A stretch of DNA of 64,000 bases from Agrobacterium cavarae. GTDB lineage: Bacteria > Pseudomonadota > Alphaproteobacteria > Rhizobiales > Rhizobiaceae. The translations under genes and the position numbers were made by a program. Position 1 is the first letter of the stretch. Every line of letters begins with the position of its first letter. The stretch covers positions 62,169-126,168 of the forward strand of contig NZ_SISF01000025.1 in the NCBI RefSeq assembly GCF_004310285.1, given 5' to 3'. The notes beneath the pieces were generated by a model, which saw only the letters and a program-made list of their open reading frames with translations, was not told the DNA's origin and made no database searches. Positions 5,981-63,770 of the stretch are shown piece after piece.

Positions 5981-6865
5981 TCAGGACGACAGGCGTTTTG
6001 CCAGGATGATCGCACCAGCAACGGCGTCGCCATCCGCGGGTTTCAAGCGCTTCCGCACGTCGGGCGCAAGCCAGGGCTCAAGCGGTCCGGAGAGGCCACC
6101 GAGCAGTGTAACGGCCGGTGCGCCATACTCGATCAGGCGTCGTACCAGTCCATCGATATGGCCAGCACCAGATTGAACGATCTGGCGGGCGGCAGGGTCT
6201 CCCTGATCGGCATGACGCAGGACCAGTGGAGCGAGCGTCGCGTAATCCGTGGCGGTTGCCTTGTCCATCCAGCCGACGATGTTGGCGGGCAGGTTATCGA
6301 AGCGGTTGAGAACCTCGGACAGCAAAGCCGTCTTATCCCGGCGTCCGTCAAAGGCGAGAAGGGCGGATTGGATCGCCTTCAATCCCATATCCGCACCGCT
6401 GCCTTCATCGGAGATCGGAAAGCCGTAGCCTCCGGCGCGTTTTTCCTCGCCACCGACCAGTGCCAGCCCGATCGAGCCGGTGCCGGCAATCACGATGCCG
6501 CCATCGTGACCGGAATGCGCGCCGAGACAGGCGGCCGCACCGTCGGAGGTGAAGCAGATATTGCCGAACGGATGGGGCAGGGCTTCCAAATGTTCGCGCG
6601 AGCCCGCACGCGTTAGCCCGGCAATGCCGATGCCTGCCACGACATTCGGGGCGTTGGAAGGATCAAGGCCGGCCTCTTCGGCAGCACCCGTCCAGGCCCG
6701 CAGCACCGATGCCCAGGCATTGGGTACCCCGAGGCGCGTCGTGGCCGGGCCGGACAGTCCTTGCCCGATCACGTGGCCATCTTCATCGACGATCCTCGCC
6801 CGGCAGCCCGTGCCGCCGCCATCGACACCGAGATACAGTGTCTGGTCGCTAAGCGGCGTCGTCAT
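5981..6865 (-). CDS. BadF/BadG/BcrA/BcrD-type sugar kinase (MurNAc/GlcNAc kinase-like)
   Basis: A 294-residue ATPase-fold kinase. It has the phosphate-1 motif LYLGVDGGGTGCRARI at residues 11-26, an IVIAGTGSIGLAL phosphate-2 loop and YGFPISDEGSGADMG, all typical of BadF/BadG-type N-acetylglucosamine/glucosamine kinases. Clostridium acetobutylicum MurK, which phosphorylates MurNAc and GlcNAc, belongs to this family. Supplying MurNAc-6-phosphate to MurQ is therefore the natural role here (inference). The start at 6865 overlaps the murA stop by 4 bp (ATGA), which favours it over an upstream in-frame ATG and shows translational coupling. Confidence 0.85.
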   Translation of the reverse strand: MTTPLSDQTLYLGVDGGGTGCRARIVDEDGHVIGQGLSGPATTRLGVPNAWASVLRAWTGAAEEAGLDPSNAPNVVAGIGIAGLTRAGSREHLEALPHPFGNICFTSDGAAACLGAHSGHDGGIVIAGTGSIGLALVGGEEKRAGGYGFPISDEGSGADMGLKAIQSALLAFDGRRDKTALLSEVLNRFDNLPANIVGWMDKATATDYATLAPLVLRHADQGDPAARQIVQSGAGHIDGLVRRLIEYGAPAVTLLGGLSGPLEPWLAPDVRKRLKPADGDAVAGAIILAKRLSS

Positions 6866-53809: not shown

Positions 53810-54562
53810 ATGACAGCCACGATTCTCATCACCGGAGCGACCTCTGGCTTCGGCCTTTCCACCGCGCGTCTTTTTGCAAGCCATGGCTGGAAGGTGATCG
53901 GCACCGGCCGTCGCGCCGAGCGTCTCCAAGACCTGAAAGACGAACTCGGATCGTCCTTCCACGGTCTGGCCTTCGACATCACCGATCAGGAGGCGATGCG
54001 TTCGGCTTTCGCCGAATTGCCGCAGGAGTTTACAGCGATCGACGTGCTGGTCAACAATGCCGGCCTGGCGCTTGGAACGGCACCTGCGCCGCAAGTGCCG
54101 CTTCAGGACTGGCACACCATGGTCAACACCAATATTACGGGACTGTTGAACATCACCCACCACTTGCTGCCAACGCTGATCGAGCGCCGTGGCATCGTCG
54201 TCAATCTTTCCTCTGTCGCGGCGAGTTGGCCCTATGCCGGCGGCAATGTCTATGCCGGCACCAAGGCGTTCCTGCGCCAGTTTTCGCTCGGGCTACGATC
54301 GGATCTTCACGGCAAAGGGGTGCGCGTTACGTCCATCGAGCCCGGCATGTGCGAAACCGAGTTCACGCTGGTGCGCACCGGCGGCAACCAGCAGGCATCC
54401 GACACGCTTTACAAAGGCGTCAACCCGATCCTGCCGGAGGATATCGCCAACACCATTCACTGGGTGGTGTCTCAGCCGAAGCACATCAACATCAACGCCA
54501 TCGAGTTGATGCCGGTGAACCAATCCTTTGCAGGCTTCCAGGTCCATCGCGACACGCAGTGA
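53810..54562 (+). CDS. SDR-family oxidoreductase, YdfG-like
   Basis: 250 residues. Cofactor loop is TGATSGFG (residues 8-15), Arg-rich GTGRRAERL suggests NADP(H) preference, then NNAG, Ser in NLSSVAASWP, YAGTK and the YdfG-type SIEPGMCETEF. YdfG reduces malonic semialdehyde and oxidises 3-hydroxy acids such as serine or threonine analogues, and the close similarity along the length supports that group. The start at 53810 has a GGAGAG site about 5-10 bases upstream. Confidence 0.9.
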   Translation: MTATILITGATSGFGLSTARLFASHGWKVIGTGRRAERLQDLKDELGSSFHGLAFDITDQEAMRSAFAELPQEFTAIDVLVNNAGLALGTAPAPQVPLQDWHTMVNTNITGLLNITHHLLPTLIERRGIVVNLSSVAASWPYAGGNVYAGTKAFLRQFSLGLRSDLHGKGVRVTSIEPGMCETEFTLVRTGGNQQASDTLYKGVNPILPEDIANTIHWVVSQPKHININAIELMPVNQSFAGFQVHRDTQ

Positions 54563-54656
54563 TCAAAAAAACGTCATAGCAAAAGCAGTTATGCAATTTG
54601 CGCATTGCTGCCCTGCGAGTGTCGCGCTTTTCAGCGCCGGGTAACGGGAGTATATA

Positions 54657-54782
54657 TTGATCATCGAAACGACGCACTCCTCCTCCCAGCGTCGTTCGAT
54701 GTGGATTGGCGATACTCCTCCTCCCAATTGCCAATCAAGTTCAAAGCCTGCCGCACCTCCTCCCGCGGCAGGCTTTTTCTTT
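54657..54782 (+). ncRNA. Small RNA with three anti-Shine-Dalgarno stem-loops (alpha-r14/'cuckoo'-type)
   Basis: Three successive hairpins are visible. The first has stem 54663-54675 / 54689-54700 with loop ACTCCTCCTCCCA; the second has stem 54704-54713 / 54727-54736 with the same loop; the third has stem GCCTGCCGC / GCGGCAGGC with loop ACCTCCTCCC, followed by TTTTTCTTTT as terminator. Different stems, identical loops, points to selection on the loops. CCUCCUCCC loops are the mark of the rhizobial alpha-r14 and related 'cuckoo' sRNAs, which pair with ribosome binding sites of mRNAs. TATATT at 54651 fits a -10 box. The exact 5' end is estimated. Confidence 0.85.
54746..54782 (+). terminator. 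Rho-independent terminator of the sRNA (third hairpin)
   Basis: A 9-bp perfect GC-rich stem followed by TTTTTCTTTT. It doubles as the third CTCCTCCC-presenting loop. Confidence 0.85.
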
Positions 54783-54850
54783 TCTGGATACCTCTCCGAT
54801 ATCTAGTTTTGTCTTCCAGGCGCGATCGCTGGCTCACGAGAGATGGTTGC

Positions 54851-54895
54851 CGCATCCTGCTTTCAGAAAACCGGGTCCGACTTTCGGGCCGGTGC
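54851..54895. repeat. RIME-like palindromic intergenic repeat, copy 4 (partial)
   Basis: Only the second half of the unit: CGCATCCTGCTTTCAGAAAA, then CTTTCGGGCCGGTGC. It is degenerate compared with copies 1 and 3. Confidence 0.55.
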
Positions 54896-54930
54896 TGTAA
54901 GGCTTCCCCACCTCGTTTCCGATCGATATG

Positions 54931-57588
54931 TCACTCGGCTGCGGTCTTCAGGCAGCCATCGATGATGGTGCGGATTTCCGCCCGGCAGGAGCCGCAATTG
55001 GTGCCGGCGCTGACGCAGGCGCCCACCGCCTCGACTGTGTGGCAGCCCTCGCGGATCGCGCTGGTGATCTGGTTGATGCCGACATTGAAGCAGGAGCAGA
55101 CGGTGGCACCGGGATCGGGTCTGCCGGCGCCCGGCCTGCCAGCGACGAGCGCGAAGCGGTTGCGTAGATCCTCATGCCGCTCTTTCAACTGGGCGACCGC
55201 CCAGTTTCGCGCAACGGCGACGGGCGCTGCTGCGATAAACAGCGCCGCCAGTAACTTATCTTCGTCAAAAAAGGCGAGCCGAATGTCACCGGTTCGATTG
55301 TCGGCATAGCCGAGCGGTTCGATGCGGGCGTCGATCCCGAAGATTTTTCTGCTCCAAGATATCCAGTCATCCGGCAGCGTGTCGAAGGCAAGCTCCAGAC
55401 GATAGCCGCCCTCGGCCTTGGCGAGAGCCCAATAGGCGCAGTCGGGCTTTTGTGGAGCCGTGGCAGTCACCGCAAAAGCATAGGCCTTTGCTTCAAAGCG
55501 GCGCGCCGTAACGGCGACATTCTTCGATGCCGGCTGTCCGGAGAAGTGATCTGTGATGGGTGGCACCAGCCTGTCGATCCGGGCATTGGCGGCGAACTGA
55601 TCGTTCCAGTGCATCGGCACGAAGAGGCTGCCGCGTGCCTGCCTGTCGGTCACAAGCGCGCGTAGGATCACCGTGCCGAGAGGGCTTTCTACCTCCACCA
55701 GATCGGCACTCTCAACCCTTGCTTCCATCGCATCGCGTGGATGAAACTCGACGAAAGGTTCGGCCAGATGTGAGGATAGCCGGGCACTTTTGCCCGTGCG
55801 GGTCATGGTGTGCCACTGATCGCGGATGCGGCCCGTATTGAGCGTCAGAGGATAGTCGGCGCTCGTGCGGCTCGTCTGCGGCAGCGAGGTAGAGACGAAA
55901 CGCGCCTTCCCGTCCGCATGGAAGAATTTCCCATCGGCGAAGAAGCGCGTCGTGTGGGGGCGCTCACCGGAGCGCTGTGGCCAGTTGAAGGGTGCCAGAT
56001 CGTCATAGGCCGGTTGCCCGATCTCGGCAAATGCGCCGATATCGAAATCACGGCTGCCATTATTCTCGAAGGCCGAGAGGCTGGCATGTTCGGCGAAAAT
56101 CTCCGTGGGATTGGCATAGGTGAACGCATCGGCGTAGCCCATGCGCTTGCCGACTTCGGCAAATTGCCACCAGTCGGCTTTCGCCTCACCTGGTGCTGGA
56201 AGGTAGCCGCGCTGGCGCGAGATGCGCCGTTCCGAATTGGTGACGGTGCCGTCCTTCTCGCCCCAGCCGAGTGATGGCAGCAGCACATGCGCATGGCGTG
56301 CCGTATCGGTCGTCCCCATGATGTCAGAGACGACGACGAAGGGACATTGCTTCAGCGCCGCTTCCACGGCCCCGGCATCGGGCATGGAGACTGCCGGGTT
56401 GGTCGCCATGATCCAGAGCGCCTTGATGCGACCATCGGCCACCGCCTGGAAAAGATCGACGGCTTTGAGGCCGGGCTTAGTCGCAATCGTCGGCGTTTTC
56501 CAGAAGCGCTGCACCCGGTCCCGGTCCTCGGCGCTTTCGATGGCCATATGCGCGGCGAGCATGTTGGCAAGACCACCCACCTCGCGCCCACCCATGGCAT
56601 TGGGCTGTCCGGTCAACGAAAATGGCCCCGCGCCGGGCTTGCCGATGCGGCCTGTCGCCAGATGGCAGTTGATGATGGCGTTGACCTTGTCGGTACCGGT
56701 GGACGACTGGTTGACGCCCTGACTGTAGCAGGTGACGACGCTTTCGGTGCGCTCGAAAAGGTCATAGAAACGGGTAAGCTCGGCGAGGCTTAAGCCCGTT
56801 GCCTCGACGATGGTTGCCAAGCCGATGTCAGAGGCCGCTCTGACCGCTTCCTCAAAACCGTGCGTGTGGCTTTCGATATAGGTCTTGTCGAGTGTTGCTC
56901 CCTTGGCCAGATGCGCCAGCAGGCCGGTGAAAAGCGCCACATCCCCATCCGGCTTGATGGCAAGATGCATATCGGCAATGTCGCAGGTCATGGTGCGGCG
57001 GGGGTCTATCACCACCACCTTCATCTCCGGCCGTTCGGCTTTCGCCGCTGCAAGACGCTGATAGATGACCGGGTGACACCAGGCGAGATTGGAGCCGGTC
57101 AAAATGACGAGATCGGCGAGAAACAGATCCTCATAGACACCTGGAACCGTGTCCGAGCCGAAGGCGCGGCGATGGCCTGCGACGGAGGACGACATGCAAA
57201 GCCGCGAATTGGTGTCGATGTTGGCCGAGCCGATGAAGCCCTTCATCAGCTTGTTGGCGAGATAGTAGTCCTCGGTCAGCAATTGTCCTGAGACATAGAA
57301 GGCGACCGAATCCGGTCCATGTGTCGCGATCGCTTCGGAAAATTTCGAGGCCACGAGATCAAGCGCCTCATCCCAGTTCACTCGGTCACCACCGACGTGC
57401 GGGTAAAGCAGCCGGTCGTCGAGATCGAGCGTTTCGCAAAGTGCCGAACCCTTGGAACAGAGCCGACCGTAATTGGCCGGATGATCCGGATCGCCCTTCA
57501 CCGAAACGCCACCGTCGTCATCGATCTTCGCGATGACGCCGCAGCCGACGCCGCAATAGGGACAGGTGGTCTTGACCTCTTGTGCCAT
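54931..57588 (-). CDS. nasA: Assimilatory nitrate reductase, molybdopterin catalytic subunit
   Basis: 885 residues; reduces nitrate to nitrite in the cytoplasm. The N-terminal 4Fe-4S motif TCPYCGVGCGV (Cys 9, 12, 16) leads the molybdopterin domain (SSSVAGHRRAFGSDTVPGVYEDLFLADLVILTGSNLAWCHPV). The molydopterin-dinucleotide domain is near 590-700. The C-terminal BFD-type [2Fe-2S] domain has CSCFNVG and CVSAGTNCGSC. The start is 2 bp after the nirD stop, so it ends the nrt-nir-nas operon. Regulation by nitrogen status is likely, through the sigma-54 promoter upstream of nrtA. Confidence 0.96.
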   Translation of the reverse strand: MAQEVKTTCPYCGVGCGVIAKIDDDGGVSVKGDPDHPANYGRLCSKGSALCETLDLDDRLLYPHVGGDRVNWDEALDLVASKFSEAIATHGPDSVAFYVSGQLLTEDYYLANKLMKGFIGSANIDTNSRLCMSSSVAGHRRAFGSDTVPGVYEDLFLADLVILTGSNLAWCHPVIYQRLAAAKAERPEMKVVVIDPRRTMTCDIADMHLAIKPDGDVALFTGLLAHLAKGATLDKTYIESHTHGFEEAVRAASDIGLATIVEATGLSLAELTRFYDLFERTESVVTCYSQGVNQSSTGTDKVNAIINCHLATGRIGKPGAGPFSLTGQPNAMGGREVGGLANMLAAHMAIESAEDRDRVQRFWKTPTIATKPGLKAVDLFQAVADGRIKALWIMATNPAVSMPDAGAVEAALKQCPFVVVSDIMGTTDTARHAHVLLPSLGWGEKDGTVTNSERRISRQRGYLPAPGEAKADWWQFAEVGKRMGYADAFTYANPTEIFAEHASLSAFENNGSRDFDIGAFAEIGQPAYDDLAPFNWPQRSGERPHTTRFFADGKFFHADGKARFVSTSLPQTSRTSADYPLTLNTGRIRDQWHTMTRTGKSARLSSHLAEPFVEFHPRDAMEARVESADLVEVESPLGTVILRALVTDRQARGSLFVPMHWNDQFAANARIDRLVPPITDHFSGQPASKNVAVTARRFEAKAYAFAVTATAPQKPDCAYWALAKAEGGYRLELAFDTLPDDWISWSRKIFGIDARIEPLGYADNRTGDIRLAFFDEDKLLAALFIAAAPVAVARNWAVAQLKERHEDLRNRFALVAGRPGAGRPDPGATVCSCFNVGINQITSAIREGCHTVEAVGACVSAGTNCGSCRAEIRTIIDGCLKTAAE

Positions 57589-61299: not shown

Positions 61300-62196
61300 T
61301 TAGTTCGCTGCCGCGCCGCGGGTGATGAGCTTTCCGGCGGCCGCCACCAGCTTGTCGAGGACGAAACCGACGACGCCGATATAGGCGAGTGCCACGATGA
61401 TGTCGGGCAGGCGGGATGAATTCCACGCGTCCCAGATGAAGAAGCCGATGCCCACGCCACCCGTCAGCATTTCAGCCGCGACGATGGCAAGCCAGGAGAG
61501 GCCGACGCCGATGCGAAGACCGGTGAAAATGTAGGGGGCGGCGGATGGCAGCATGATCTTGTAGAAGAACTCGATCTGGTTGAGGCGCAGCACTTGGGCG
61601 ACGTTGCGGTAATCCTGCGGGATGTTGCGTACTCCCACCGCGGTATTGATGATGACCGGCCAGATGGAGGTGATGAAGATCACGAAAATGGCCGAAGGAT
61701 TGCTGTCCTGAAACGCGGCCAAGGACAGCGGTAGCCATGCGAGCGGCGGGACGGTGCGCAGCACCTGAAAGATCGGATCGAGGCCTCGCATCGCCCAGAC
61801 GGACTGGCCGATGATGGCGCCAACGACGACGCCAACGATCGCTGCAAGACCGAAGCCGTAGGCCACACGTTCGAGCGAAACGAGAACGCGCCAGCCAAGG
61901 CCGATATCCTGAGACCCATAATGGAAGAAGGGGTGGACAATCAGGTCGTAGCTTTCCTCAAAGACCTGGCTCGGGGGCGGCAGCGACGCGCCGGGCGCCG
62001 AACAGAGCGCCTGCCAGAGGCCAAGCAGGATCACCAGAACGACGAGCGGCGGAACGACGTTTCGCGCAATCGATGCGGCGATCTTGCGAAAAGAGAGTAC
62101 CGACACGGGGCGGCGGTTCATGGCGATCACGGTGCCGCCCTTTGGCGTCGCAACGGCGATGGCCGTGCTTTCTGTCTTGCGTGCGGTTGCGGTCAT
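61300..62196 (-). CDS. nrtB: Nitrate/nitrite ABC transporter permease (NrtB)
   Basis: About 298 residues with six predicted helices. A first helix near residues 40-58 (VVPPLVVLVILLGLWQAL) follows a cytoplasmic N-terminus. The EAA-like loop is RNIPQDYRNVAQVLRLNQIEFFYKIMLPSAAPYIFTGLRIGVGLSW. The start at 62196 has CAGGACAAG upstream; another ATG 11 codons before is possible. It is separated from nrtA by a strong hairpin. Confidence 0.93.
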   Translation of the reverse strand: MTATARKTESTAIAVATPKGGTVIAMNRRPVSVLSFRKIAASIARNVVPPLVVLVILLGLWQALCSAPGASLPPPSQVFEESYDLIVHPFFHYGSQDIGLGWRVLVSLERVAYGFGLAAIVGVVVGAIIGQSVWAMRGLDPIFQVLRTVPPLAWLPLSLAAFQDSNPSAIFVIFITSIWPVIINTAVGVRNIPQDYRNVAQVLRLNQIEFFYKIMLPSAAPYIFTGLRIGVGLSWLAIVAAEMLTGGVGIGFFIWDAWNSSRLPDIIVALAYIGVVGFVLDKLVAAAGKLITRGAAAN

Positions 62197-62238
62197 GGTC
62201 TTGTCCTGTTTCCGGATGGTGTGTTGCACGGGTTGCGC

Positions 62239-63572: not shown

Positions 63573-63770
63573 GTCGCATGTTCCCCTTTTTGGCAGCCTC
63601 ATGGGCGCCCTATGACTTTTGCGAAGCCCAAAAACAAAAAAACGCCGCTCGGTGATGCGCCTTCGGAACGGGAGGAGGTTCCGGGCTGCATACCTTGCGA
63701 CGTCTGTGTCGTATGAAGAACGCTGATAACGCGTTCCTGCTGCTCCGATCGCCGTTGACCCGAGCGTTTT
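63573..63770 (-). promoter_or_regulatory. Structured 5' leader of the nrt-nir-nas operon
   Basis: On the minus strand, in order: hairpin GAACGC/GCGTTC (63718-63736); small hairpin CGAC-ACAGAC-GTCG (63698-63711) with a hexaloop having A at 1 and G at 4; hairpin CGGAAC-CTCCTCCC-GTTCCG (63664-63683); then GCGGCG followed by T7-G-T5 (63630-63642), which resembles an attenuator. NasT-type ANTAR proteins bind paired hexaloops with A1 and G4 and prevent termination in nas leaders. Only one of the two hairpins fits that rule, so this is a candidate. Confidence 0.55.

Follow-up and report, generated by a model that had tools for sequence, protein, structure and literature searches.

The αr14 RNAs form a described family of small RNAs, of which NfeR1 from Sinorhizobium meliloti (Smr14C2/SmelC397) is the founding member. 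NfeR1 has three hairpins with identical, ultraconserved CCUCCUCCC anti-Shine-Dalgarno (aSD) motifs on highly different stems (PMC10746234). It is nitrogen-regulated in S. meliloti, being activated by LsrB and repressed by NtrC, both of which bind the promoter. It silences ntrB via its aSD motifs, and mutation of the three aSD seeds abolishes this silencing (PMC10746234). The targets listed there are transporters, many of them ABC systems, plus ntrB (PMC10746234, PMC7143759). Six αr14 copies with mostly transporter targets are reported for S. meliloti, and only one of them was reliably seen by northern blot (PMC7143759). Three- and four-hairpin forms, present in multiple copies per genome and presumed to block ribosome-binding sites, have also been described (PMC3927594).

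Two further systems are close. RFMSmelA075 and RFMSmelA099 (the 'cuckoo' RNAs, a name taken from citing papers) form three or four hairpins with CCUCCUCCC loops and occur in several copies per genome. AbcR1 and AbcR2 (αr15) resemble αr14 in that their aSD motifs are aimed at ABC transporter mRNAs and that an LsrB site is found at the AbcR1 promoter (PMC10746234, PMC7143759). They are a separate family, however, with two aSD motifs, and they bind Hfq (PMC7143759), whereas NfeR1 is described as Hfq-independent (PMC10746234). Structure, loop motif, stem divergence, multicopy state, target type, and nitrogen regulation of the αr14 family are already known.

The window (the whole 64 kb stretch of DNA analysed here) contains an end-to-end match to Rfam family RF02344 (ar14, Alphaproteobacterial ar14) at 54659-54780 (+), which covers model positions 1-123 of 123 with 120.2 bits and exceeds the gathering score of 58.8 bits by 61 bits. 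We consider it very probable that this is a trans-acting αr14 sRNA of the NfeR1 kind, one of three paralogues in its Agrobacterium genome, with the nitrate operon as a lineage-specific neighbour. The features of the locus are as follows; promoter positions are given relative to the first base of the RF02344 match, taken as the transcription start.

53810-54562, plus strand: SDR-family dehydrogenase, YdfG-like (best NCBIfam match YdfG with 315.4 bits, below the cut-off of 411); upstream of the sRNA in 36/36 genus orthologs
54560-54576, plus strand: altered NtrC-like box TGA-N11-TCA, overlapping the SDR stop codon
54592-54605, plus strand: LsrB-like box TGCA-N6-GCAT at -67 (published motif TGCA-N6-GCAT)
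54651-54655, plus strand: putative -10 element core TATAT, starting 7-9 bases before the RF02344 match start in 37/37 orthologs
54659-54780, plus strand: αr14 (NfeR1-type) sRNA, ~122 nt (RF02344 match, fold z -6.28, covariation)
54662-54701, plus strand: hairpin 1, loop ACUCCUCCUCCCA (fold; among orthologs, double-sided changes in 3/13 pairs and 93.3% of cells paired)
54704-54736, plus strand: hairpin 2, loop ACUCCUCCUCCCA (fold; double-sided changes in 6/10 pairs, 100% of cells paired)
54743-54779, plus strand: hairpin 3 and T run, loop ACCUCCUCCC, putative intrinsic terminator (fold; 11/12 pairs invariant)
54931-57588, minus strand: nasA-type assimilatory nitrate reductase (Pfam molybdopterin oxidoreductase domains and Fer2_BFD)

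The loop motif CUCCUCCC is common to all three hairpins, while the stems differ. Plus-strand copies of the longer form CTCCTCCC occupy 54680-54687, 54718-54725, and 54757-54764, and the window has one more copy, at 63670-63677 (-). A total of four in 64 kb is ordinary (2.55 expected; at least four in 27/100 shuffles), but three copies in 85 bases, each heading a hairpin, are not. Folding of 54640-54800 yields a minimum free energy of -60.1 kcal/mol (z -6.28, equalled by 0/200 shuffles) and places the motif in each of three separate loops, which have 13 bases in hairpins 1 and 2 and 10 bases in hairpin 3. A T run follows hairpin 3. A generic terminator scan returned no terminator at the sRNA; its loop limit is 8 compared to the 10 bases of the hairpin 3 loop. 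Fold and alignment thus agree on the arrangement typical of αr14, with three hairpins that each expose an unpaired CCUCCUCCC aSD motif. The RNA shares with NfeR1 the three-hairpin layout, the identical aSD loops on divergent stems, a length of ~122-123 nt, and an LsrB-type box upstream. It corresponds to the three-hairpin form among RNAs such as RFMSmelA075 and RFMSmelA099, from which it does not differ in kind; the copy on contig C7 of the same genome has four motifs. By every family feature that could be tested, the sRNA is clearly an ordinary member of the known αr14 family.

Orthologs of the window copy, each with the SDR gene upstream, are present in all 36 other genus genomes examined. 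Their alignment comprises 37 sequences including the window, of which 30 are distinct (for G029, the ortholog is L093, while L065 is a class A copy as defined below). The three loops are invariant across this set. Double-sided changes occur in 9/35 pairs (shuffled mean 4.7; 0/500 shuffles as high), 97.5% of cells across the stems are paired, and the covariation score of 0.184 (0.122 in shuffles) lies above every shuffle. One of five covariation measures, the number of further pair types, shows no excess (17 compared to 17.4 in shuffles). Hairpin 2 alone has six doubly changed pairs and no broken cell, while hairpin 1 contains two pairs that are often broken (in 12/30 and 11/30 sequences). No new kind of system is opened by this locus; it extends a known family by a well-supported ortholog set from 37 genomes in which covariation is clear.

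The initial annotation, made from the window sequence, had described three hairpins with unlike stems and one common loop at these coordinates, and the fold, the motif positions, and the RF02344 match agree with it. Its proposal that the third hairpin doubles as the terminator fits with the T run that follows, the terminator itself being putative. The likeness to αr14/'cuckoo' RNAs that it had noted proved an understatement: the αr14 covariance search that had been set beforehand as a check identifies a full family member. Conservation of the loops in related genomes, on which the proposal had been staked, is found in all 37 orthologs, and loops are held while stems diverge, as the invariant loops and covarying stems demonstrate. 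By analogy with NfeR1, its reading as an RNA that pairs with ribosome binding sites is probably right for an RNA of the αr14 type.

By the same analogy with S. meliloti, the sRNA would have a promoter of its own, with the LysR-type regulator LsrB as the probable activator, and its transcript would end at the third hairpin. The unpaired CUCCUCCC in each loop is expected to pair with purine-rich Shine-Dalgarno regions and would thereby block translation of several mRNAs, those of ABC transporter genes included; the three loops may be redundant, as they appear to be in S. meliloti. Scanning 54500-55000 for sigma-70 promoters of the E. coli type gave no match. As only one of the six S. meliloti copies was reliably detected, the window copy could be weakly expressed.

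Possible partners were sought at mRNA 5' ends throughout the source genome, as had been proposed initially. The perfect 8-base partner of the loop, GGGAGGAG, is found 3-11 bases before an ATG at 33 sites, compared to 3 for the reversed pattern. A control Shine-Dalgarno sequence, AAGGAGAA, gave 45 sites and 10 for its reverse. Because patterns of the Shine-Dalgarno type generally exceed their reverse, the 33 sites are to be read as possible partners and not as targets. We fetched 30/33 GGGAGGAG sites and 30/45 control sites and set aside those lacking an ORF of 100 aa or longer (7 and 11, respectively). This left 23/30 GGGAGGAG sites and 19 control sites, the latter reduced to 18 by removal of one duplicate. 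ABC transporter parts are encoded at 9/23 GGGAGGAG sites and at 3/18 control sites, a difference that is suggestive but not significant (Fisher p = 0.17). The control value represents three ABC families with one member each among the matches listed (25/30 families) and may be an undercount. Leaders with the matching sequence exist, but their excess is shared by the control. The target set had initially been regarded as something undescribed; its class, transporters with many ABC systems among them plus ntrB, is already in print for NfeR1.

While NfeR1 is reported to pair with ntrB, the predicted pairing is weak for the window sRNA: the ntrB start region of the source genome (AAGGAAGG) and the loop give -6.0 kcal/mol as a simple duplex energy calculated without an accessibility model. 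The published ntrB interaction is thus not clearly predicted in the source genome. A separate ranking across ORFs, which kept whichever of as many as four start codons scored best, some of them clearly internal, is unreliable. As the ABC excess is not significant and the ntrB duplex is weak, the silencing mechanism outlined above is carried over from S. meliloti.

The nitrate genes of the window are on the minus strand in the order nrtA, nrtB, nrtC, nirB, nirD, nasA. Among them, nirB, nrtB, and nrtC pass their NCBIfam cut-offs, nasA and nrtA score below and are named by Pfam domains and place, and nirD, scanned with Pfam only, has a Rieske domain. For nasA, the NCBIfam matches to Fdh-alpha (484.5 bits) and NasC (440.5 bits) are both below cut-off, which leaves the domains and the nir/nrt neighbours as the basis of the name. 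The initial annotation had placed the sRNA in head-to-tail relation with this operon. Since nasA is on the minus strand, the arrangement is instead convergent, with sRNA and nasA facing each other 3' end to 3' end at a distance of 150 bases. It had also given special meaning to the place next to nasA, which the comparison of related genomes leaves unsupported: the SDR gene is kept in 36/36 orthologous loci, while nasA is the immediate neighbour in 1/36 (G010) and lies 1.7 kb off, with one gene between, in another (G022).

In the remaining 34/36 genus genomes, nasA is absent from the ~6 kb fetched downstream of the sRNA; in 32 of these, it is located elsewhere in the genome. As to the other two, G001 has no nasA match and G014 has only a distant relative with 40% identity. 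Beyond the genus, nasA is present in 39/79 genomes sampled from the other genera of the family. None of these 39 has an αr14 within 5 kb of nasA among the matches listed, where the closest pair is 12 kb apart (G093), and the triple motif is found within 1.5 kb of nasA in 0/28 other-genus loci, a search for which the window served as positive control. A conserved nasA linkage is thus ruled out by synteny, and the nitrate operon looks like a lineage-specific, incidental neighbour of the window sRNA. Among the open-access papers listed by our searches, we saw no earlier mention of an Agrobacterium sRNA next to nitrate genes.

Among the 80 named loci examined (of at least 120, many with short flanks), one has a similar arrangement: in Agrobacterium vitis S00303 (L160), an αr14 is convergent with nasA, 25 bases from the nasA end. 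This copy has four motifs, and none of SDR, NdT, and rnd is found within 2.3 kb upstream. Because of the four motifs and the other neighbours, we read it as a separate event. From these sequences, αr14 and nasA seem to have become adjacent on two or more occasions, yet such adjacency is rare.

The alternative of a functional coupling between the sRNA and the adjoining nitrate operon, in which the sRNA controls nas genes or is controlled together with them, draws on the 150-base distance, on the paralogue of the four-hairpin type next to nasA in A. vitis, on nasA being only 1.7 kb away in G022, and on the nitrogen regulation reported for NfeR1 in S. meliloti. Pairing predictions contribute one point: the assumed nrtB start region (GTG at 62229; gene 61300-62229, -) contains GCGGAGGGGCG and pairs with the loop at -13.1 kcal/mol, the strongest of 13 start positions compared. 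The other genes of the operon reach -4.5 to -8.1 kcal/mol, like unrelated genes in the window. With the nrtB exception, neither the nas genes nor ntrB are singled out as favoured targets by simple duplex energies. Given these values and the scarcity of nasA beside the sRNA within and outside the genus, we judge such a coupling to be very unlikely. That hairpin 3, read on both strands, acts mainly as a terminator which the SDR gene and the nas operon have in common would suit the convergent arrangement but is scarcely credible, as a terminator needs neither two more covarying hairpins nor invariant loops nor a conserved promoter region, and nasA is not at the corresponding place in 34/36 relatives.

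Two observations concern the nitrate genes themselves. In three genus genomes (G010:C1, G005:C4, G028:C12), nasA matches as two abutting pieces, as if interrupted or misassembled. In G001 (91% complete), a frame of 140 aa next to the sRNA (L037 5547-5969) has a weak receiver-domain match below the Pfam cut-off; it presumably resembles NasT and may be the remnant of a nitrate regulator.

The window copy is one of three αr14 copies in the source genome that score above the cut-off (120.2 bits for the window copy, 125.6 and 107.1 bits for the others); four weaker RF02344 matches, with at most 25.6 bits, are below it. We refer to the copy on contig C5 as class A, to the window copy, which is rnd-SDR-linked, as class B, and to the copy on contig C7 as class C. 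The class C copy (L074 ~5984-6150, G000:C7, minus strand) has four aSD motifs, not three; the segments of the first three form hairpins in the fold, the last hairpin being outside the folded stretch. Four-motif αr14 RNAs are also found in other genus genomes, e.g., L075, L078, L080, and L081. Within 3.3 kb of the first αr14 paralogue (L073 6032-9351) there are matches to two more sRNA families of alphaproteobacteria, ar35 (48.7 bits, cut-off 45) and ar7 (107 bits).

The promoter regions were compared between the classes, using 29 class A loci (30 minus L036, which is of the window type) and 12 class C loci (without L092, in which the first motif differs, and L076 and L096, for which the motif search was blank); all box counts are raw pattern matches. 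The LsrB-like box is found at -64 to -67 in 37/37 class B copies, using a slightly looser pattern, and also in 29/29 class A and 11/12 class C copies. The window copy itself carries the candidate LsrB box TGCA-N6-GCAT of the NfeR1 circuit. Upstream of it, the strict NtrC box TGC-N11-GCA is not found; the sequence reads TGA-N11-TCA in the window, as it does in G001 and G010. The strict form occurs near -97 in 21/37 class B copies, the window not among them, and in 2/29 class A copies (-102 and -79), and class C has 0/12 with an NtrC-like box even in the relaxed form. That relaxed form (TG[AC]-N11-[GT]CA) covers 37/37 class B copies but was chosen after the sequences had been seen, so that only the strict counts carry weight. 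The NtrC-specific part of the NfeR1 nitrogen circuit is altered at the window copy, which thus matches this circuit only partly.

In NfeR1, the NtrC box is at -116 to -100 (PMC10746234), whereas the NtrC-like box of the Agrobacterium copies is at ~-97, and the spacing between NtrC and LsrB boxes is ~12 bases shorter in Agrobacterium than in S. meliloti. The same source describes the NtrC box as not evident in Agrobacterium (PMC10746234). A putative NtrC-like box that is conserved upstream of the LsrB-like box only in the window-type paralogue is a modest lead, and the promoter comparison suggests that the S. meliloti nitrogen input may have an Agrobacterium counterpart at just one paralogue. 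On pattern matches of this kind, we tentatively raise, as a possibility that we consider rather doubtful, that the three Agrobacterium paralogues have divided inputs. The LsrB-like box would be common to all, a conserved NtrC-like operator would be restricted to the rnd-SDR-linked copy, and one copy responding to nitrogen would carry the NtrC-NfeR1 circuit beyond the legume symbionts. Within the clade to which the window belongs, this operator would have drifted to another palindrome, with nitrogen control changed or lost.

Outside the genus, αr14 is close to rnd (3'-5' exonuclease) in 1/20 other-genus loci and in one named Rhizobium locus (L331 4223-5073; L166 7205-7999), so that the rnd linkage may predate the SDR linkage. 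In several other genera, two to three αr14 copies are clustered within ~0.3-0.6 kb (L313, L314, L315, L318, L320). In L314, L318, and L320, one αr14 copy has both an LsrB-like box and a TGC-N11-GCA box.
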